Assembly: GCF_000426305.1 (NCBI RefSeq) | Contig: NZ_AUFC01000005.1 | Coordinates: 62,001-126,000 of the forward strand | Length of the DNA: 64,000 bases | Source: Anaerovorax odorimutans DSM 5092 | GTDB lineage: Bacteria; Bacillota; Clostridia; Peptostreptococcales; Anaerovoracaceae | Reading direction: 5' to 3' | Shown: positions 1 to 9,376 of the stretch, one piece after another | How the letters are laid out: each line of letters starts with the position of its first letter | Position numbering within the stretch: the first letter of the stretch is position 1 | Notes under the pieces: model-generated | Told to the model about the DNA's origin: nothing | The model's database searches: none | Seen by the model: only the letters and a program-made list of their open reading frames with translations | Program-made: the position numbers and the translations under genes

Positions 1-377
1 CAATCATACTGTAAATTTTTCATGTCCACATAACCGCTTAACGTCCTAAAAAAAGGAGGTAATAATTTGGCTTCATATTTACTAGCAGCCTCTTCAATCT
101 CAATTGTAATGTCCAAATTCTCTTGACTACCGTCAATAATGCAGTAAACCTTCTTTGCCAATTCCGTTTCCATCGGCACTCCATTTTTGGATAGTACAAA
201 GATTGGAATATCAAACTTTGTATCATAAATTTCAGAAATAAATTTTTGTTCAGAGTCAGTTAATATCACTGCTGCCACATCTGTATAATCCGTATTCTCA
301 ACTAAAACCAACTCTCTGTTCTTCAGTTGAAGGTAGGCTTTGGACTCCATAGTGCATGCAATCTTTAAAGGTTTCAC
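1..377 (-). CDS. Orn/Lys/Arg decarboxylase, N-terminal part (runs off the left edge)
   Basis: The minus frame is open from a GTG at 377 to the window edge, giving about 125 residues. An AGGAGG ribosome-binding site lies nine bases upstream of the GTG; an earlier in-frame ATG sits upstream of that site, so GTG is preferred. The product begins MKPLKIACTMESK and ends in KLLPPFFRTL, then SGYVDMKNLQYD. That is how the wing/linker region of PLP-dependent ornithine/lysine/arginine decarboxylases reads just before their CPGHQGG motif, which would lie outside the window. The family decarboxylates basic amino acids to polyamines in the cytosol. Substrate cannot be decided from this part. Symporter and peptidase genes with the same promoter type lie upstream, suggesting an amino-acid catabolic or acid-stress role. 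Confidence 0.8.
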   Translation of the reverse strand, partial: MKPLKIACTMESKAYLQLKNRELVLVENTDYTDVAAVILTDSEQKFISEIYDTKFDIPIFVLSKNGVPMETELAKKVYCIIDGSQENLDITIEIEEAASKYEAKLLPPFFRTLSGYVDMKNLQYD

Positions 378-463
378 GAGATGCTCTCCTCCTATCTCCA
401 TTTAATACATTTCAAATTTCTTTTTCATGTGAAAAGGAAAAGCCTTATTCACAATAAATTATT

Positions 464-520
464 GATTATTTCGAATTATATTGATAGGTTTCATAAAACT
501 TCAAAATAATTCATAGTGTA
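464..520 (-). promoter_or_regulatory. Promoter A with triple phased TTTGAA boxes (decarboxylase)
   Basis: On the minus strand a -10 TATAAT (475-480) is preceded at 18 bp by a -35-like TTGAAG (499-504). Three TTCA cores on the plus strand (490, 500, 510) are spaced exactly 10 bp apart and overlap the -35. The same layout recurs upstream of the symporter (twice) and the peptidase, which implies a common regulator on one face of the helix. The start codon is about 90 bp downstream. Confidence 0.65.
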
Positions 521-630
521 TTCTTTTTTTTATATAAATTAAAAATATTTACTCATAGCTAGGTGTAAAATATTAAAAGACAAAACAATTAAGCCTTTTT
601 ATAATAAGTGTCAGCCCCTTGCCAATTTTC

Positions 631-2109
631 TTAATTTTCATCTTTATTTTGTTTTGAATAATTTTTCTGTACAATACTTTTCCATAAACCAGCATTATTG
701 ATGCCACAACGTTCCGGATCAAATATAGGGTCCAGACCGGCTTTCTTCTGCTGATCATAATCTCTAACAGCACTCATGACCGGCTTAATAAGGAATAACA
801 TTCCAATCAGGTTAAACCAAGCAATGAGCCCTACACCGATATCAGCTATATTCCATGCTAAAGACGAGCTTTTGATACTGCCAAAGAAAATGGATAGCAT
901 TTGAACGCCCCCGATAAACAGCGTAATCTTTTTTAAATTCCTGCTTCCTTTTAGCAAGTAAGCCAAATTAGGCATTACATAGAAGCCGAAAGATAAAATT
1001 GTTGTGATAGCAAAGAAGAAAATGGCAACCGCAATAAAGATGGTACCTGTTCCTTTAGGAAGTGCTGTATCAATAGCAGCCTGAACATATGCAGTACCTG
1101 GATTTGCACCTGAAAGACCTTCTGTTATGAAGTTTCCGGATTTATCCACTACATTGTACATGCCAGTAACAAGAATCATAAGACCCGTAGACGTACATGC
1201 AAATATGGTATCTACATATACTGAGAAACCCTGCGCCAGACCTTGCTTAACTGGGTGAGATACTTCCGCAGATGCTGCTGCCTGAGCTCCTGATCCCATT
1301 CCTGCTTCAGTACTGTATACTGCTCTTTTTACACCCCATAGAATGGCACTACCCCAAATTCCTCCATAAGCAGCGTCAAGATTGAATGCACTTTTGAAAA
1401 TCAATGCGAACATTCCTGGAATCGCTTTAATATTTAAAACAAGAACGATAATCATAATTATAAAATAAGCTCCAGCCATAATAGGAACCACAAGTTCCGC
1501 AAAACGTCCAATTCTCTTCATGCCGCCAAATACAACAAACCCAAATAAAACAGCCACTACAATTCCCGTGATTACAGGATTGATTCCAAATGCATTTTGG
1601 GTTGCTTCTGCGATGTTAAAAGCCTGAATAGTAGGGCCGGTAAAACCAAAAGATATAATTGCGCAAATAGCAAAGGCCACTGCTATGGGCTTTAATTTAG
1701 CTCCTTTTTCTATATAGTAAGCCGGACCACCGCGATACTCTCCGCCAACGTCTTCCTTCCAGATCTGAGCCAGCACTGCTTCACCCAAAGCTGAAGCTGC
1801 ACCAAAGATAGCATAAATCCACATCCAGAAAATAGCACCCGGTCCGCCAAAACAAATAGCTGTAGCAACCCCAGCAATTGCACCGATACCAATTCTTCCA
1901 CCCAGTGCCATTGCAAAACCCTGGAAAGATGAAATTCCGCTTTCAGAATCTTCGCCGGTGATTAAATAATAAACCATGTCTTTGAAGCGGGTGATCTGAG
2001 GAAATTTAAGGGCAAAAGAATAAATAATGCCAACACCCAGACACAATACAATCATGGGTACACTCCAAAGCAAACCGACAATTTTGTCTATAATTGATAT
2101 GAAATCCAT
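631..2109 (-). CDS. Sodium/alanine symporter family (AGCS) amino-acid transporter
   Basis: 492 residues with about 11 hydrophobic segments and the AGCS signature region (GRIGIGAIAGVATAI, then GGPGAIFWMWIYA and YRGGPAYYIEKG). Family members import small neutral amino acids with Na+. The usual Asn of the GxxNIAGV motif is Ala here (GAIAGV), so substrate or ion coupling may differ from well-studied members. A GGAGG site lies close upstream of the ATG. It sits between the RocB-like peptidase and the decarboxylase and has two copies of the phased TTTGAA promoter upstream. Its base composition is visibly richer in G+C than most neighbours. The family is certain; the transported amino acid is not. 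Confidence 0.88.
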   Translation of the reverse strand: MDFISIIDKIVGLLWSVPMIVLCLGVGIIYSFALKFPQITRFKDMVYYLITGEDSESGISSFQGFAMALGGRIGIGAIAGVATAICFGGPGAIFWMWIYAIFGAASALGEAVLAQIWKEDVGGEYRGGPAYYIEKGAKLKPIAVAFAICAIISFGFTGPTIQAFNIAEATQNAFGINPVITGIVVAVLFGFVVFGGMKRIGRFAELVVPIMAGAYFIIMIIVLVLNIKAIPGMFALIFKSAFNLDAAYGGIWGSAILWGVKRAVYSTEAGMGSGAQAAASAEVSHPVKQGLAQGFSVYVDTIFACTSTGLMILVTGMYNVVDKSGNFITEGLSGANPGTAYVQAAIDTALPKGTGTIFIAVAIFFFAITTILSFGFYVMPNLAYLLKGSRNLKKITLFIGGVQMLSIFFGSIKSSSLAWNIADIGVGLIAWFNLIGMLFLIKPVMSAVRDYDQQKKAGLDPIFDPERCGINNAGLWKSIVQKNYSKQNKDEN

Positions 2110-2227
2110 TTCGTTTTCCTCCTTTAAAACTTGTAAGTTTTTTCTAAATCAGTCTGTTTTCTGCAGATATTTTTCAATATCTTCCTTTATTCCTCCCTTC
2201 TTTCTGTCCCAGCGCCCCTAATAAACT

Positions 2228-2283
2228 GATTATTTTGAATTATATCTATTAATTTCAAATTGCTTCAAAATGCCTCAAACTGT
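2228..2283 (-). promoter_or_regulatory. Promoter B with triple phased TTTGAA boxes (symporter, proximal)
   Basis: Minus-strand -10 TATAAT (2239-2244), 18-bp spacer, -35-like TTGAAG (2263-2268). Boxes with plus-strand cores TTCA, TTCA, CTCA lie at 2254, 2264 and 2274, a 10-bp period. It is about 120 bp upstream of the symporter start and matches promoters A, C and D. Confidence 0.65.
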
Positions 2284-2453
2284 TTTCTTTATTTTTCGTA
2301 AAGTCATGCTCATCCTCTTTATGATTCCTTCCAAAAGGAAGTCTTCTCTTAACTTTTCATTTGTAATATAAAGTTAAATCGTAGGATCAGCTGATAGTAT
2401 GGGCTTCTATTTGCAATATGTTTAACATAAGGATGCCTTTTGGATGAATAAAC

Positions 2454-2512
2454 TGATTATTTGGATTATATGAATGAGTTTCAAATTATCTCAAAATTCT
2501 TCAAAATTCTTT
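2454..2512 (-). promoter_or_regulatory. Promoter C with triple phased TTTGAA boxes (symporter, distal)
   Basis: Minus-strand -10 TATAAT (2465-2470), 18-bp spacer, TTGAGA at the -35 (2489-2494), and boxes at 2480, 2490 and 2500. It lies just downstream of the peptidase terminator and 226 bp upstream of promoter B, so the symporter appears to have two tandem promoters of the same type. Confidence 0.6.
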
Positions 2513-2526
2513 TTATTTTTTTTCAA

Positions 2527-2570
2527 AAAAAATCATGAGAACTCAGTACTAATCTGAATTTCTCATGACT
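2527..2570 (-). terminator. Intrinsic terminator of the RocB-like peptidase gene
   Basis: A stem with arms TCATGAGAA and TTCTCATGA is followed on the minus strand by a run of T. It lies about 80 bp past the peptidase stop codon and before promoter C, separating the two transcription units. Confidence 0.75.
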
Positions 2571-2648
2571 TTTATTTTTTATGGACTTTAAATTTGGCTT
2601 TGAACTGTTTTTCTTCCTTATAGAAAAATCCTTTAATTCTCTTTTTTA

Positions 2649-4286
2649 TTAATCTAATTTTAATAAACTTAGTACAGCTTCCAAAATAATATCTGCTGCT
2701 TTTTCAAAAGAATATGACATGCATATTCTTTCAGTATATTTATGCGCATCTTTTCCTAATGGGCCAACATTAATAAACGGAATGTTAAGTTTAGCAATAG
2801 TTTCTAATGGTACATGATAACTCATATCCCAAATAGGAAAGTTATTTGTTAATTGTGTAATGTCTACGTTCTTTGATAATCCCAAATAACTCATATCAGA
2901 TAACCCCATAAAAAAAGGTTCTATTTTTATGGTTTCATTAAACTTTTGCTTTGCAAATTTTACAATGTGCTTACTTACTTGTATAACTTTGTTATCTAAG
3001 TTTTGAATATCGGAATGAGGATAAAACGGCGGAGAATAAAAAACAACAATTATTGGATTTCTGTAAGGGCAAAATTTGTGTGCTTCCTTTACAATTTCAA
3101 TAGATAAATCACGTAAATCTTGATTTGATTTTTGATTATCAATAAACTTTTTTAAATGTAATTGGAATTTATCTCCATGAGTTTTATAGCATAATTTATA
3201 AAGTTCTTGAAAGGTGATAACCTTAGGTTCAATATTAGGTATGTTAAGTATTTCACCTGTACTTTCAGATAATTTTTCAATATTTGTTCTAATATCAGAT
3301 AAAACTTCTTTAAAAGAACTTTCTGCAATATTTATCATACTCTGCATTACTTCTTGTGGTGTTTTTACCAAAGTCATATAATTAAAATATGTGTAAGCCG
3401 AAGTAGGAGTTTGAACAGAATAGTCAATCTTAGTATCAGCTTGTTTTAAACATGCAGGTGGAGGAACAATCGTATCCATAACATAATCTGATAATTCAGG
3501 ATTAGAATCAATGTTTTCTATTAATTTTGCTGTTAAACGATTAGCATTTAACCCTGAAAAAGGTTCACAGACATGGGTTTCCTTGCCTACACAATAGAAA
3601 GAAGGTAACAGTTTTCCTACCGTTCCTGTATAAATATATTTTGTATCATCTTTAGGATACTTAGGAAAATGAGGTTCCGAAACTAAACAACAGCTATATT
3701 CTAACTGCTGTTCTTTTTTCAATGATTCCAATAATTCTACAGCTGCCAACATTCCGGCAGAATTAGCTTCTTCATCAGGTACTGAAAGAAATAAAAGATT
3801 TCCTTCAAAATTTGATAGTTCTTTTTCCATCGTATATAATATTTCAATGTCTGCAGCAATCCCAAATTTCATATCCATAATACCACGTCCAAACAAATAA
3901 TCTCCTGATTCCAAATCTGCTCTTGCTTCTTCGCTCATCTGTATTTGAGAATTATCTTTTAACTTTTGTGTATACGCAATTGGATCGAAAGCCAATTCTT
4001 TTAAGATGCCAAAGTCTTCTATACCTACAACGTCAAAATGACTTAGTAAAATTATAGTTTTAGAATTCTTTTTTTCACTCTTCATAAGTGCGTAAACAAA
4101 ACTACGATTATAAGGGTCTCCATTCATTGGGCAAACTTTAACCATCTCAGGATTATTTTTAAAATAATTAATTTCGTTTAATATTTTATAAATTTCATGA
4201 GCTATATCTATTTCACCATTAGTTTCAGAAATGCTTGGCACACTGCATAATCGCAATAGATTACTTAAAATTCTATTTTTTTTCAT
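2649..4286 (-). CDS. M20 family peptidase, RocB-like (arginine utilisation family)
   Basis: About 545 residues, matching the usual length of RocB-family proteins and longer than ordinary ArgE/DapE M20 enzymes. Probable zinc ligands are visible in order: LLSHFD, GRGIMDMKFG, VPDEEANSAG, a SEPHF stretch, and a C-terminal DAHKYTER His. The start is the ATG at 4286, because GGAGGAGATTG precedes it; the TTG one codon earlier lies inside that spacing. The RocB family is linked to arginine/ornithine catabolism, but its exact reaction is not settled and I infer only a di-/aminoacyl hydrolase. Promoter D lies upstream and an intrinsic terminator downstream. The promoter is shared in type with the symporter and decarboxylase. 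Confidence 0.82.
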   Translation of the reverse strand: MKKNRILSNLLRLCSVPSISETNGEIDIAHEIYKILNEINYFKNNPEMVKVCPMNGDPYNRSFVYALMKSEKKNSKTIILLSHFDVVGIEDFGILKELAFDPIAYTQKLKDNSQIQMSEEARADLESGDYLFGRGIMDMKFGIAADIEILYTMEKELSNFEGNLLFLSVPDEEANSAGMLAAVELLESLKKEQQLEYSCCLVSEPHFPKYPKDDTKYIYTGTVGKLLPSFYCVGKETHVCEPFSGLNANRLTAKLIENIDSNPELSDYVMDTIVPPPACLKQADTKIDYSVQTPTSAYTYFNYMTLVKTPQEVMQSMINIAESSFKEVLSDIRTNIEKLSESTGEILNIPNIEPKVITFQELYKLCYKTHGDKFQLHLKKFIDNQKSNQDLRDLSIEIVKEAHKFCPYRNPIIVVFYSPPFYPHSDIQNLDNKVIQVSKHIVKFAKQKFNETIKIEPFFMGLSDMSYLGLSKNVDITQLTNNFPIWDMSYHVPLETIAKLNIPFINVGPLGKDAHKYTERICMSYSFEKAADIILEAVLSLLKLD

Positions 4287-4349
4287 CAATCTCCTCCATT
4301 TTTATAAACTGATTTCTGCTCTTAAAAAATGTATGTCAAAATATCATAT

Positions 4350-4402
4350 ATTTTATTTTATAATATACTTCTATGCTTCAAATTATTTCACAATGCTTCA
4401 AC
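4350..4402 (-). promoter_or_regulatory. Promoter D with triple phased TTTGAA boxes (peptidase)
   Basis: Plus-strand TTCA cores at 4377, 4387 and 4397 (10-bp period), minus-strand -10 TATATT (4362-4367) and a GTGAAA at the -35 position. It fills the 120-bp gap between the kinase stop and the peptidase start and is the fourth copy of the arrangement. Confidence 0.6.
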
Positions 4403-4408
4403 AATAGA

Positions 4409-5698
4409 TTAATGTTTCTCGGGTATAATCGGCGGATCTGCTTTCAAGGAATTAATTGGAATCATTATTGTAAAAATTGTTCCTTTGTTCTCTAACGATT
4501 TTAAAGATAGACTTCCATGAAATATGTCTTGGACTAGATCCCTTACTAAAGTAAGTCCTATTCCTATTCCTATATTTCCTGTCTCTTTATCAAACTTTGT
4601 TGAAAATCCAGGATTAAATATAAATTCTATGTCATTTTTCTTAATTCCATTTCCATTATCAATAACATTAAATATATAATCTTCCCCTGACTGAAAAATC
4701 TCCAGTTTGATTTTACCATTTCTCTTACTATATAAACATTCTATGGAATTCGTAATCAAATTCTTTAAAATAGACATCAAATAAAAGTGCTCTTCTACAT
4801 AAAAACTTACTTTAACATCTACAGTAAAAATAATATCTAATTTTCCAATTCTTATTTGTTCATCGGTATCACTTTTCAAAATACGAATAATATCATTAAT
4901 ACTCATCCCTGATACGTCCAATTGTTCTATTGAAAGCTCTTTTAGACCTGCTATTACTCTTATATAATCCTTTTTTATTTCATGTATATCTTTTGAAATA
5001 TCAAGTGCTAAATTCTTTAATTCCTCCGAATATTTCTGCTCTTCTATAATTCTATAGGCCTTAAAGGCTTTTTTTGTTATATCTTCAATTTCGTTTATAT
5101 TTTTATTCATAAAATAAATTTCACTTTTAAAACTAGAGGATAAAATCATTAGTTTCATATACCGTCTTTCATGTTCTTCATGTATTAAAAATGATTTAAA
5201 GTTTTTCAAAAAAATTATAATTATTAATATAATGATAGCTCTCACTAATGCAATTATAATTAATCCTTTTATTATAATTGCACTAAATCCAATAATCCTT
5301 GTCCTTATACACATTTCAGCAATATTAGAAAATAGATCGCAGGCAAAAACTGTAAAGAAAAACCGAATATAATCATTCTCTTTTTTAGATCTGTAATAGA
5401 GAAAATAATAAAGAACTCCATAAGTGAAATAAAATATAATATCAGGTACTACTAAATACAATGATCTTTTTAAATCACCCATTTGTAAATACACTATTAT
5501 TTCCCTGAATATGGGTGACACAAACCCCGTAACTATGGCAGTCTTTATAGGATTTAATTTATGATAATTATCTAGAAAAATAGGAAAAAGAATAACGGAT
5601 AGAGTAATAATAAAGCCCTCTATAAAAAGGTCAATATGAAATAGAGATGCAAAAGCTATGCAAAAAGCTACAATTAATGTATGTTTTACTTTATTCAT
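4409..5698 (-). CDS. Orphan membrane sensor histidine kinase
   Basis: 429 residues. Residues 1 to about 170 hold five or six hydrophobic segments with no large external domain. A helical region follows with the phospho-acceptor motif DIHEIKKDY near residue 235. The ATPase domain has an N box (NLITNSIECL), G1 (DNGNGI) and G2 (GIGIGLTL). No response regulator gene is adjacent. The compact dimerisation motif recalls Spo0B/CitA-like kinases. The gene ends 6 bp from the TTTGAA operator of the peptidase gene. It may therefore sense an amino-acid or energy signal for that regulon, but this rests on position only. Confidence 0.85.
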   Translation of the reverse strand: MNKVKHTLIVAFCIAFASLFHIDLFIEGFIITLSVILFPIFLDNYHKLNPIKTAIVTGFVSPIFREIIVYLQMGDLKRSLYLVVPDIIFYFTYGVLYYFLYYRSKKENDYIRFFFTVFACDLFSNIAEMCIRTRIIGFSAIIIKGLIIIALVRAIIILIIIIFLKNFKSFLIHEEHERRYMKLMILSSSFKSEIYFMNKNINEIEDITKKAFKAYRIIEEQKYSEELKNLALDISKDIHEIKKDYIRVIAGLKELSIEQLDVSGMSINDIIRILKSDTDEQIRIGKLDIIFTVDVKVSFYVEEHFYLMSILKNLITNSIECLYSKRNGKIKLEIFQSGEDYIFNVIDNGNGIKKNDIEFIFNPGFSTKFDKETGNIGIGIGLTLVRDLVQDIFHGSLSLKSLENKGTIFTIMIPINSLKADPPIIPEKH

Positions 5699-6190
5699 AA
5701 AGATATTTCTCCCTTAAAATTATAAAAATTAAATATATATTATAAAATTAAAAAATAGAATATAACTTTGATAAAATATGCATTATCAAAAATAGATATA
5801 ATATATACCTTAACTTTTTTATTAATGAAGCATTCTCCCCTGATACAATGTTGGTCTCTAAGCCCTTTACAATAATTGCTTATTTCTTAAGTTTCTGAAT
5901 TTTAATTCTTTAATTCTTTAATTCTTTAGGTATTATACCATACTAGAAAGACTGCAGGGGGAATCATAATTCTTTATTTTAATTATTTCCAATATTAAAA
6001 AATTAATAATAATTAAAGTGCTATATGTTCCTTTAATATAAAATATATAACACTCCAATACTATTTCAATTTAGTATTTTGGTAATTTTCTTATATATAA
6101 AAACAAAAATCAACTATTTAATATTAAAACGTTGGTCACTTTATCTCTAAAGCATATCTTAACAAAAAAATTCTTTTGATTTTGCAATAG
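5699..6190. other. Intergenic stretch without a recognisable gene
   Basis: Very AT-rich. It contains a short tandem TTAATTC-type repeat around 5905-5928 and presumably the promoter of the sensor kinase, but I cannot assign -10 and -35 boxes with confidence. No ORF with a ribosome-binding site was found. Confidence 0.4.
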
Positions 6191-6195
6191 ATAAA

Positions 6196-6238
6196 AATAC
6201 TATAGCCCAGTACTTCCCATACTAAGCTATAGCTATTT
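6196..6238 (-). terminator. Intrinsic terminator of the methyltransferase gene
   Basis: Arms around CTATAGCTTAGTA and TACTGGGCTATAG form a hairpin followed by TATTTTTAT on the minus strand, directly past the methyltransferase stop codon. Confidence 0.6.
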
Positions 6239-6246
6239 ATTGAGAT

Positions 6247-6996
6247 TTAATATTCATTTCTCCCGACAATCATGCAAAAATTCATTTTAACCTTCTTTTT
6301 ATTTTCTTCATTACCCCAAATTCCTTTTATCTTTTTATAAGCATTAGAATAAAAATCAGTTCCTTCTGCTTCAATACATAATCTTGTTGCCGACCATGAT
6401 TGCATATATGCAAAAAGTTCATTTATGTCCCATTCAATACTCATCTCAATATCAGGAGAATTTATTTTTTTAAATGGTAAATTTATATTTTCATAATTGT
6501 CCCATAAGATTTTATTTTGTGGTGCCCAATATGTCCTAATTTTTTCACGAAATTCAGATTGTATTAATGTATCAATCTCTTTATCGATGTTGAACCATGA
6601 ATATCCCCAAGCCGCAAATATACCATCTTTTTTAAGAACTCTTTTTACTTCTGACCAAAAAGTATCATAGTTAAACCAATGAAGTGCTTGAGCAACACAA
6701 ATCAAATCAAAAGAATTATCCTTAAAATTCGTTTTATCTGACGATTGTACATAATATTCTATACCTTCATGTTTTATTGAGTTTGATATTTGATTCTCAC
6801 TTATATCTGTAGCATAAACTTTATTAAAATATCTAATTAAATCAATTGCGACTTGTCCATTTCCACATGCACAATCCCAAGCTACTCCTCTTTCTTTACA
6901 AATTGAATTTAAGTAATTATAAAGTTCTTTTGGATAAGCCGGGCGTGAACTTAAATATAATTTTGAATTTTTATTAAATAATTTACTATATTCCAT
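6247..6996 (-). CDS. Class I SAM-dependent methyltransferase
   Basis: 249 residues of Methyltransf_11/25 type. Motif I is AWDCACGNGQVA near residue 40, with an acidic residue ending the second strand (YATDIS). The motif IV region reads FDLICVAQALHWF, and a post-motif segment reads VLKKDGIFAAWGY. The ALHWF form is common in small-molecule methyltransferases annotated as UbiE/trans-aconitate-like. The start has a GGGGGAG ribosome-binding site. It appears to be a single-gene unit with its own terminator. The substrate cannot be predicted. Confidence 0.85.
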   Translation of the reverse strand: MEYSKLFNKNSKLYLSSRPAYPKELYNYLNSICKERGVAWDCACGNGQVAIDLIRYFNKVYATDISENQISNSIKHEGIEYYVQSSDKTNFKDNSFDLICVAQALHWFNYDTFWSEVKRVLKKDGIFAAWGYSWFNIDKEIDTLIQSEFREKIRTYWAPQNKILWDNYENINLPFKKINSPDIEMSIEWDINELFAYMQSWSATRLCIEAEGTDFYSNAYKKIKGIWGNEENKKKVKMNFCMIVGRNEY

Positions 6997-7083
6997 AATG
7001 CTCCCCCTGAACTAATTATCATATTTTAATATGTTTTTAAAATATAATTTAAAATAGCTTCTAACCTATTAAAATCAATAGAT

Positions 7084-7125
7084 TTAGAGTTTTAGTTTTG
7101 GAGGCAACATCCAGATTGGAACTGG
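7084..7125 (-). repeat. 3'-end copy of tRNA-Cys (possible attachment-site scar)
   Basis: Forty-two bases match 11495-11536 at 35 positions by my count. The match covers the T arm, acceptor strand and CCA of tRNA-Cys and part of its downstream terminator. The 5' half of a tRNA is absent. The orientation is the same as the intact tRNA-Cys, whose 3' end points toward this copy, as after integration of an element at a tRNA 3' end. Confidence 0.5.
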
Positions 7126-7132
7126 AATTACC

Positions 7133-9376
7133 CTACAAAATCTCTTTATTAAAATGTCCTCTTGTGTCTGTTTCCTGATTAAAGACAGCTTTATCCATCC
7201 CGCCATTTAATTTGCTGAAGGCTTTATTAATGGTTTTCACAACCTCCTCTTTAGATTCAACTGTAAAGTTCAATCTAAAGGCCTCGATTCCTTTTATGCA
7301 AGACATCTCGTCTAAAAGATTAAGCGTCTTCCCATTAAGGATAGTCGTTGTACAATCATCATGACAAATTATAGGGAATGTTCCGTGCTCATCTTTTAAC
7401 TCATAGCTTGACCTTTTACAAATACTGCATTGATTCATTTTCTTCAACGGGCAGTATTTTGTAAACATCAAAGGAGCCTTACCATATACAATCATTTCTA
7501 GTGCGGGATAGCCGTCATTTTCTTCATAATAGGCATTTATTAAATCTTCAATTTGTCTCTTATTCAATTCATAAGATAAAGTTACTCGTTTCGCACCTAA
7601 TCTATATAATTCATAACAACTAGCAGAATTAACAACATTTAGAGAATAGTCCGTAACAAAAGGATTAGTTTTTCTGTAGTGATAAATTCCACCATATCCT
7701 CCGATTAGTAGCTGCCCTTCTTTTTCCTTATAATCGTTCTGGTTTCTTCTAACAACGTTTTCAAAATAGATTTCTTTAATTCCACAGCTCACGCAAGCAT
7801 CATACTGTTCTTTAGTCATTACAGAGGCCGTAAGGTATGGTTTTTCAGGGGCAAAGCTTATTTTTTCTTTTTCTTTCAAAGCCTTGGTTCTTTTCTTTTG
7901 GCTGTTAAGCTTTAAGTCATATAAGCCGCATACAATATCTCTTCTTGCTGCATTTAAAAGTTTAGCTGGAATAAATGCACCCAATTCCTCAAAATCCACA
8001 TGATCAAGTTCGAATATAGTATCATTTAATCTTGAAAATTGTTTTATTACCTTCTCTTTTGTCGTTGGATTATTAATTGCTTTTTCTACTATTTCCTCGC
8101 TTTCATATAAATAATTAAAGCCTAAGCCTGAACCATCTATGATAAGCTTTGAATCTGGATATGCATACACTCTAATATCTAGTTTAAAACGCATAAATTC
8201 TTTTTCCAGTGATGATTCTAACTCTTTGTAATAGAAATAATCCTTAGTTATATATACTAAATCACCCTTAGAAATCTTTTCTTTGATTTTAATATAGCAG
8301 ACATCATCTGCTTTATTGATTAAATTGCCATCTTTATCGTACAGTTTTACAACAGTTAAATTAACATCTTCATTATTATGACTTATTCTGATTATATCAT
8401 TTTGATTTAAAGTACGTGTAAGTGTTATTTCATACATGTCTTTAACAATCTTGGTAATTCTACCAATTTCATAACCAAAATTATTAGGTCTTAAAATGTT
8501 TGTAATATCTTTCTTATCTTCATGAAACAAATATCCTTTAGTAAATGTTCTATTGAATGTTTTGTTCAGATTTTCTTTATCTTCTTCGGTTATTTTATTA
8601 TCTAAGGCCATGCGATATTTTGATACAACATTAGCAACATACGCAGGCTCTTTCATTCTACCTTCTATTTTTAAAGAATCAATTTCTTTTAGATCATTAA
8701 TATAATCGATTGTGTTTAAGTCCTTAGTAGATAGAATATAGTTTTTCCCTAAAGATGTATCTGTTGTCTTATCAATTAGTTCATACTCCTTACGACATGA
8801 GCCAACACATCTTCCTCGATTTCCGCTTCGGTAGCCTATAAGACCCGACATCAGACAGTTTCCAGAATAAGATACACATAAAGCACCGTGAACAAAAATT
8901 TCTATAGGTATTTTAGCTATTCTTTTTATCTCTTTTACTTTTTCAATGGGAACCTCACGGGCCATAACAACTCTTTTAGCACCAAGTTCTTTAAATAATA
9001 AAGTTCCATCTAAATCGTCTATTCCCATTTGAGTTGAACAATGTACTTCCATATCAAAAAAGTTTTTAACTACGTAATCAAAAGCAGCCAGATCCTGAAC
9101 GATAATCCCATCAACACCGATTTCATTTAATTCGTGCATCTGCGCTTTCATCTCTAAAACTTCATTCTCGAAAACGATGGTATTCATTGTTACATAGATT
9201 TTAACATTCCTCAAGTGTGCATACTGGACAGCTTCTTTTAATAATTCTAAATCAAAATTAGATGAGTATGCACGTGCACCAAATTTTTGCATTCCTAAGT
9301 ATATTGCATCACAACCATTAGAAATTGCAGCTTTTAAAGCTTGCATATTCCCTGCTGGAGCTAATAATTCAGTCAT
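7133..9376 (-). CDS. U32 family protein, RlhA/PrtC-like, long form
   Basis: About 747 residues. The ATG at 9376 is chosen because the upstream in-frame ATG at 9388 is part of the GGAGG site that serves it. The N-terminal U32 domain begins TELLAPAGNMQAL, and the family signature with clustered Cys (HGALCVSYSGNC, then GRCVGSC) is near residue 165. A middle DUF3656-like region follows. A C-terminal U32-like half contains YGKAPLMFTKYCPL and NQCSICKR. Long U32 proteins of this build include E. coli RlhA, which hydroxylates 23S rRNA cytidine; an RNA-hydroxylation role is inferred from family. The gene lies 13 bp after a 47-codon ORF and follows the ABC-F gene, perhaps in one transcript. Confidence 0.82.
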   Translation of the reverse strand: MTELLAPAGNMQALKAAISNGCDAIYLGMQKFGARAYSSNFDLELLKEAVQYAHLRNVKIYVTMNTIVFENEVLEMKAQMHELNEIGVDGIIVQDLAAFDYVVKNFFDMEVHCSTQMGIDDLDGTLLFKELGAKRVVMAREVPIEKVKEIKRIAKIPIEIFVHGALCVSYSGNCLMSGLIGYRSGNRGRCVGSCRKEYELIDKTTDTSLGKNYILSTKDLNTIDYINDLKEIDSLKIEGRMKEPAYVANVVSKYRMALDNKITEEDKENLNKTFNRTFTKGYLFHEDKKDITNILRPNNFGYEIGRITKIVKDMYEITLTRTLNQNDIIRISHNNEDVNLTVVKLYDKDGNLINKADDVCYIKIKEKISKGDLVYITKDYFYYKELESSLEKEFMRFKLDIRVYAYPDSKLIIDGSGLGFNYLYESEEIVEKAINNPTTKEKVIKQFSRLNDTIFELDHVDFEELGAFIPAKLLNAARRDIVCGLYDLKLNSQKKRTKALKEKEKISFAPEKPYLTASVMTKEQYDACVSCGIKEIYFENVVRRNQNDYKEKEGQLLIGGYGGIYHYRKTNPFVTDYSLNVVNSASCYELYRLGAKRVTLSYELNKRQIEDLINAYYEENDGYPALEMIVYGKAPLMFTKYCPLKKMNQCSICKRSSYELKDEHGTFPIICHDDCTTTILNGKTLNLLDEMSCIKGIEAFRLNFTVESKEEVVKTINKAFSKLNGGMDKAVFNQETDTRGHFNKEIL

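Follow-up and report, generated by a model that had tools for sequence, protein, structure and literature searches.

Phased TTTTGAA boxes before ornithine/arginine catabolism genes of Anaerovorax odorimutans as predicted operators of a GlnL/YcbB-type response regulator

The DNA studied here is a stretch of 64,000 nucleotides from Anaerovorax odorimutans DSM 5092 (contig NZ_AUFC01000005.1, positions 62,001 to 126,000), referred to below as the window, and the elements in question are four promoters with phased boxes near its start (sites 1 to 4). The genes and promoters of this region lie on the minus strand, with the promoters facing into the genes, in the order HK1 - site 4 - M20 - sites 3 and 2 - AGCS - site 1 - speF - OTC - arcC. 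These labels stand for a GlnK-type membrane histidine kinase (HK1), an M20-family hydrolase, an AGCS-family sodium/amino acid symporter, a speF-type ornithine decarboxylase, ornithine carbamoyltransferase (OTC) and carbamate kinase (arcC), the last two of which lie outside the window. Two further sites, a second GlnK-type membrane kinase (HK2) and a response regulator gene were found on contig C9 of the same genome (Table 1).

Table 1. Sites and genes considered in this study (window numbering, unless a contig or locus is named)
Feature	Position (strand)	Boxes	-10 hexamer	Context
Site 1	475..516 (-)	490-516	TATAAT 475-480	5' of speF-OTC-arcC
Site 2	2239..2280 (-)	2254-2280	TATAAT 2239-2244	proximal AGCS promoter
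Site 3	2465..2506 (-)	2480-2506	TATAAT 2465-2470	distal AGCS promoter
Site 4	4362..4403 (-)	4377-4403	TATATT 4362-4367	directly 3' of kinase gene, 5' of M20 gene
Site 5	C9:40425-40465			just 3' of regulator gene
Site 6	C9:39135-39175		TATTAT	just 5' of regulator gene
speF-type ornithine decarboxylase (start)	1..401 (-)			728 amino acids from ATG 401; runs out of window
AGCS-family sodium/amino acid symporter	631..2109 (-)			492 amino acids
M20-family hydrolase	2649..4289 (-)			Pfam: Peptidase_M20 only
HK1, GlnK-type membrane histidine kinase	4409..5698 (-)			window
HK2, GlnK-type membrane kinase	L010:5845-7122			directly before regulator gene on C9
C9 regulator	L002:605-1441			PF00072 receiver + PF08664 YcbB

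Read on the minus strand, all four window sites showed the same layout, in which three heptamers of the form N-T-N-T-G-A-R (TTTTGAA-type) follow each other with a period of exactly 10 bp. The third box was separated from the -10 hexamer by exactly 9 bp in 4/4 window sites and in 6/6 sites of the genome, and none of the 18 boxes at these six sites deviated from T, G and A at box positions 4-6. A good -35 hexamer was absent from all sites. An earlier sequence-only reading had placed TTCA cores with a strict 10-bp period on the plus strand at four positions; all four are present where it put them, its cores being the minus-strand boxes, its period is exact at every site, and its -10 boxes (TATAAT at three sites and TATATT at one) were recovered. 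Its 18-bp spacer is obtained with a -35 hexamer that overlaps the middle box.

Searches with the bare triple box, allowing up to three mismatches, gave nine matches in the window, shifted registers and weak places included, compared with a mean of 1.39 and a largest count of 6 in 100 shuffles. With a matrix built from the six sites, the four window sites scored 29.8-34.6, the next place in the window (an overlapping register) scored 18.5, and Markov simulations (60 x 64 kb) reached a maximum of 21.7, exceeding 20 in 4/60; as the matrix was built partly from the sites under test, these values indicate separation and are not an independent test. In the 3.26-Mb genome, the strict pattern with the -10 (up to three mismatches) matched five places, namely the four window sites and site 5, and none in the reversed control, so that the random genome-wide frequency named in the sequence-only reading as a ground for rejection was not observed. 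A looser pattern gave nine matches, compared with four in the control, and added site 6; the nine consisted of the six listed sites, one overlapping register and two places (on C1 and C32) resembling chance. The genome total was therefore six sites, four in the window and two flanking the regulator gene on C9. A tighter box pattern without the -10, with one mismatch allowed, gave four genome matches (control, one), all at sites 1, 3 and 6, one of them a shifted register at site 6; sites 2, 4 and 5 were missed. A pattern with an 11-bp instead of a 9-bp distance between the boxes and the -10 was also tried and found one site only.

The C9 gene encodes a receiver domain (PF00072) followed by a YcbB domain (PF08664; 108.6 bits, cut-off 27.4) and is the only YcbB match in its genome; among 14 control genomes, PF08664 matched B. 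subtilis alone. GlnL of B. subtilis carries this YcbB domain. The products of the HK1 and HK2 genes were 71% identical over 418 residues. Because the same sites flank its gene, the GlnL/YcbB-type response regulator on C9 is, as judged from the sequence, most likely the protein that acts at the window promoters. Its assignment to the GlnL/YcbB type is consistent with the order of receiver and YcbB domain, the adjoining gene for a GlnK-type kinase, and the 10-bp tandem boxes 5' of a transporter gene. No response regulator gene was detected beside HK1 in the window cluster, and a tblastn search (E 0.1) of C4:56001-72000 revealed no regulator remnant; control of the window copy would thus act in trans. 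The idea that one regulator serves transport, hydrolysis and decarboxylation of a basic amino acid, put forward in the sequence-only reading, gains support from these sites around the C9 gene.

Other identities of the regulator were considered. Among Pfam matches at E 0.001, only Response_reg and YcbB were present, so that neither the Trans_reg_C winged-helix domain of OmpR-type regulators nor the LytTR output domain of AgrA-type regulators was found. For Spo0A, TIGR02875 gave 58.7 bits against a cut-off of 200, and there was no PF08769 match at the regulator gene. The suggestion of an OmpR-type dimer-chain regulator, also made from the sequence alone, was not borne out, as the output domain is PF08664, with a predicted Spo0A-like fold; its author was right to refuse Spo0A for the motif, though the regulator looks like a structural cousin of Spo0A.

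Comparison of the two clusters revealed that C9 has the order HK2 - site 6 - regulator - site 5 - broken speF - broken arcC. The speF remnants behind site 5 comprise a 43-bp N-terminal part (79%) and a 227-bp C-terminal end (83%), with stops in the pieces, and the arcC remnant is the 3' end (246 bp at 90%); no OTC match was found behind site 5 on C9. Sites 4 and 6, which both follow a kinase gene, have GAAGCATTGTGAA in common, and sites 2, 3 and 5 resemble each other along 57-97 bp. On the simplest reading, a cluster was duplicated, after which the C9 copy would have kept HK2 and the regulator while its speF and arcC decayed and its OTC was lost, and the window copy would have kept the intact genes together with HK1.

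We also searched for the sites in other species. A blind, exact scan of 84,980 species, among which the A. odorimutans genome itself may not be included, gave seven matches outside that genome, and all seven directly adjoin a homologous kinase-regulator pair, either divergently 5' of the kinase gene (L081, L082, L085, L084 and L087) or just 3' of the regulator gene (L083 and L086). We then considered 56 YcbB loci that had not been used to define the motif: 20 from 61 relatives (14/61 genomes match, A. odorimutans included) and 36 from a class-wide draw (31/291 genomes match). The draw held 43 YcbB rows, from which the 36 new places were taken; four were duplicates (A. odorimutans, G038, and G040 twice), and the fragments G212:C44 and another portion of the G190 gene, itself part of a stretch already included, were left out together with the weak match G234. 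Scoring of each locus took in the gap between the two genes and extended as far as 400 bp to either side of the pair. The matrix of the A. odorimutans sites reached 20 in 12/56 loci at period 10; periods 7-9 and 11-14 yielded no such locus. A hand-set box with A or T at position 6 reached 13 in 25/56 loci at period 10, compared with 0-2 loci at the remaining periods in the range 6-15. A strict yes/no box rule was satisfied in 10/56 loci at period 10 and in no locus at any of the remaining periods between 6 and 15. In seven of these ten, the best -10-like hexamer within 30 bp started 9-10 bp after the last box; in the remaining loci it started at 20 (one) and at 0 and 5 (two).

The letter at box position 6 followed the regulator tree. 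In a tree of 62 sequences, the 17 A-type and 5 mixed loci all lay on one side of a branch with a support of 100/100 (28 rows), and the 9 T-type loci, with the box TTTTGTA, lay on the other (34 rows). The labels were set by eye, with 31 rows unlabelled, and the tree leaves out L084, whose regulator is cut at a contig end, and L138, which has no readable frame from the matched start; L080 was labelled none, its site (17.2) lying beyond the 400 bp scanned. The long branches of L087, L076, L148, L073 and L135 make single placements unsure. The T-type box resembles the site of GlnL, which Satomura et al. (2005) reportedly gave as the tandem TTTTGTN4TTTTGT, with a 10-bp spacing. The number of boxes varies between relatives, since up to six phased boxes stand in one row in L081 (5340-5410) and two separate arrays lie 5' of the kinase gene in L082 and L085.

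A homologous kinase was found beside the regulator in 60/64 YcbB loci (tblastn E 1e-4), the exceptions being L117, L135, L138 and L146. The YcbB regulator genes in L135, L138 and L146 had no kinase match in the stretch examined, and the receiver of L135 begins with IFILDKN instead of the usual acidic pair. In L066, a kinase gene is nearby and not adjacent to the regulator gene.

To describe the DNA-binding domain, we used an AlphaFold model of the relative in L083, built from a six-sequence alignment (mean predicted local distance difference test score of 80.1). VIA-align revealed a Z-score of 11.8 with the Spo0A effector domain 1fc3_A over 112/119 residues and of 11.3 with the Spo0A-DNA complex 1lq1_C, the next entry showing 3.6; the comparison was a second look at the 245 chains that Foldseek had preselected, and helical folds, as the tool itself cautions, can attain Z-scores of this size through a common arrangement. 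A profile comparison of 58 YcbB with 24 Spo0A domains was weak, with a probability of 10% and E 0.003 (single comparison), the reversed control giving 0.3% and 0.23. Its alignment is collinear over the recognition helix and lays YcbB QRIRRAI on Spo0A RAIRHAI; the Q, R, R and R of QRIRRAI are invariant in the six aligned sequences. A fold search with the whole regulator model returned receiver-domain matches. The YcbB DNA-binding domain is thus predicted, from this model, to fold like that of Spo0A. Spo0A binds its 0A boxes head-to-tail at a 10-bp spacing over the -35 region, and a Spo0A-like fold would suit head-to-tail binding every 10 bp. The YcbB domain is described as a novel helix-turn-helix in a passage of PMC4395418 and is named in PMC3406050.

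Overall, the four window promoters are very probably operators of one GlnL/YcbB-type regulator that would serve ornithine/arginine catabolism after the duplication of the cluster. In the proposed mechanism, a GlnK-type kinase (HK2, probably also HK1) would sense an ornithine/arginine-related signal and phosphorylate the C9 regulator, the Spo0A-like domains of which would line up head-to-tail along a single face of the helix across the -35 region, with each TTTTGAA box bound by one domain. The row of three domains would substitute for the poor -35, contact RNA polymerase and recruit it to the -10 located 9 bp past the last box. The regulator is predicted to act on its own gene as well as on speF-OTC-arcC, the M20 hydrolase and, through two tandem promoters, the AGCS symporter.

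Several observations weigh against this interpretation. No clear phased site (none reaching 13) was found near the pair in 31/56 of the other YcbB loci, and as the hand-set box was widened after the result with the A. odorimutans matrix, the period control is the fair part of that comparison. A loose pattern with three mismatches gave 63 matches in 60 relatives, compared with 30 in the control, occurring also in relatives without YcbB, and the match in G037 was the only one within 1 kb of a YcbB gene; this loose pattern is mostly noise. An arginine deiminase-like gene on C18, whose 471.8 bits fall short of the 489.1 cut-off, has no site, the best score in its 4.2-kb locus being 9.5. As for the fold, its model rests on six sequences, and Foldseek with the DNA-binding domain alone gave no significant match (E 0.001) and did not list Spo0A. 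Finally, most YcbB pairs adjoin glutamate, dicarboxylate, alanine-type or branched-chain-type transporters, so that an ornithine signal would be no family trait.

The gene neighborhoods of the relatives bear on this last point. In three distant genomes, OTC and carbamate kinase genes adjoin the pair. They come after such sites in Streptococcus uberis (L084, scanned) and S. halichoeri (L087, tblastn); in G265 (L141), OTC and carbamate kinase (52%, tblastn) come after the pair together with an arginine-ornithine antiporter that scored over cut-off. Phased sites at L141 lie 5' of the kinase gene (20.2 with the A. odorimutans matrix), with weaker ones past the regulator gene (14.9 with the hand-set box). 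In L148, from the family-level group of A. odorimutans, an AGCS symporter 50% identical to that of the window lies behind the regulator with four boxes between, and in L146 an M20 hydrolase 34.6% identical to that of the window is divergent from the regulator. A transporter gene adjoins the pair in 16 of the 20 loci from relatives (Pfam or tblastn), the types being SDF, GltS, AGCS, NhaC, NMT1_3 and Peripla_BP_6; L072, which was unscanned, resembles L070, the scanned neighbors of L066, L067 and L076 are non-transporters, and the LivJ-type genes in L081, L082, L085 and L142-L146 were named by likeness to L080. The theme of the family is inducible uptake of amino or organic acids, and arginine/ornithine catabolism is one branch of it.

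A less likely alternative is that the regulator and sites are as described but that the signal is glutamine, alanine or another amino acid, with the ornithine genes as a side branch. The commonest neighbors of YcbB pairs, transporters of the AGCS (GlnT family), SDF, GltS and LivJ types, point in that direction, as does the GlnK-GlnL precedent, for which a passage of PMC2743287 states that glutamine induces glnT through GlnK-GlnL in B. subtilis, the ycbA-ycbB genes themselves not being glutamine-induced. In contrast, OTC-carbamate kinase operons recur by the pair in Streptococcus and Clostridia, once with the antiporter, and A. odorimutans itself has speF-OTC-arcC, which speaks against this alternative.

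A repressor, whose array over the -35 region blocks polymerase until the signal arrives, would also suit boxes in that position. We consider this improbable, as the lack of a good -35 at any site is expected for activated promoters, and a distance from the last box to the -10 of 9 bp in 6/6 A. odorimutans sites and 9-10 bp in 7/10 other strict loci suits polymerase contact; in addition, GlnL activates glnT according to a passage of PMC2743287. Activation by the C9 regulator would be the expected mode.

The boxes might instead belong to Spo0A itself, under stationary-phase control. An intact Spo0A gene is present (C2:279361-279672), the YcbB domain is predicted to have the Spo0A fold, and 0A boxes also repeat at 10 bp. 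The boxes nevertheless have no C as in the 0A box TGNCGAA, and the sites cluster at YcbB genes; because phased boxes accompany YcbB genes (14.9, 14.9 and 25.6) in G040, G051 and G056, three genomes that lack a Spo0A_C match, Spo0A is a very unlikely reader of the boxes. Weak or broken Spo0A_C matches were seen at G000:C9:36753-36932 and G000:C2:94288-94530, one of them about 1 kb 5' of HK2. That the boxes are bent-DNA or UP-type promoter elements rather than protein sites is equally hard to credit: T runs phased at 10 bp do bend DNA, but 18/18 boxes, unlike plain T tracts, keep T, G and A unchanged at positions 4-6, 7/7 species-wide matches lie at YcbB pairs, and elsewhere in the genome the pattern hardly occurs.

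Compared with known systems, the proposed regulon is closest in its parts to GlnK-GlnL (YcbA-YcbB, acting on glsA-glnT), with which it has in common the receiver and YcbB domains, a regulator gene immediately preceded by that of the kinase, an AGCS symporter target and tandem boxes at 10 bp. In contrast to that system, box position 6 is A in 18/18 A. odorimutans boxes and not the T of TTTTGT, three or more boxes are present, the sites flank the regulator gene and the targets are far from it, two kinases would feed one regulator, and the targets include ornithine decarboxylase, OTC, carbamate kinase and the M20 hydrolase. Spo0A is similar in its predicted domain fold and in 10-bp direct repeats near the -35, but the C9 regulator falls below the Spo0A family models, and its box and metabolic targets are different. 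OmpR/PhoB-type regulators also use direct repeats about one helical turn apart near the -35, whereas no winged-helix output domain was found in the C9 regulator. Arginine deiminase (arc) operons likewise contain OTC and carbamate kinase, with the arginine-ornithine antiporter as in L141; unlike them, the operons as read here have no deiminase, ornithine decarboxylase stands in front in A. odorimutans, and YcbB-type control would take the place of the ArgR or Crp/Fnr types known from arc operons. Among the titles and abstract openings returned by searches of an open-access library, we found no description of the regulon, the box rule or the YcbB-Spo0A relation.

The operator rule and the fold link are the more general claims of this analysis. 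We lean towards the view that YcbB/GlnL regulators are metabolic relatives of Spo0A with an operator code of at least three head-to-tail TTTTG(A/T)A boxes, one helical turn apart and usually ending 9-10 bp before the -10, in which the choice between A and T coincides with the deepest split in the tree of sampled regulators, and that in A. odorimutans a regulator of this kind serves ornithine/arginine catabolism, the cluster having been duplicated and the regulator retained in one copy, the enzymes in the other. As the letter tracks this split, regulons of the little-studied YcbB family would be predictable from sequence. A minor class of response regulators would thereby be linked to a predicted Spo0A-type fold and given an operator pattern, with one branch tied to arginine/ornithine catabolism; the operator code, the letter change along the tree and the feeding of one regulator by two paralogous sensors are now directly testable.

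With respect to the window genes, the decarboxylase is of the ornithine type, its partial protein scoring over the NF010092 cut-off, and it is followed, with about 20 bp between genes, by OTC (TIGR00658) and carbamate kinase (TIGR00746), both over cut-off. The GTG at 380 has a better ribosome site than the ATG at 401 and is the likelier start of speF. The M20 hydrolase, named RocB-like in the sequence-only reading, matched no NCBIfam model over cut-off. In window 1-8000, no Rfam family reached its gathering score in the search for RNA leaders.

Some minor observations were also made. In G028 (L041, about 1500, reverse strand), a run of phased TTTGA boxes lies 5' of a DeoR-like gene; this genome has no YcbB match and there is no kinase or regulator beside the boxes, which are perhaps due to chance. 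Outside the boxes and the -10, the two AGCS promoters (window 2220-2296 and 2447-2520) and the speF promoter (463-531) resemble each other, and around and after the -10 they have GATTATTT(C/T/G)GAATTATA in common (plus-strand reading). Because they are alike beyond the boxes and the -10, these promoters probably arose as copies of a single segment. At window 2521-2580, in the interval that separates site 3 from the end of the M20 gene, there is an inverted repeat, TCATGAGAA / TTCTCATGA, with T runs on both sides; it resembles a two-way terminator, and a similar repeat lies 5' of site 5 on C9.

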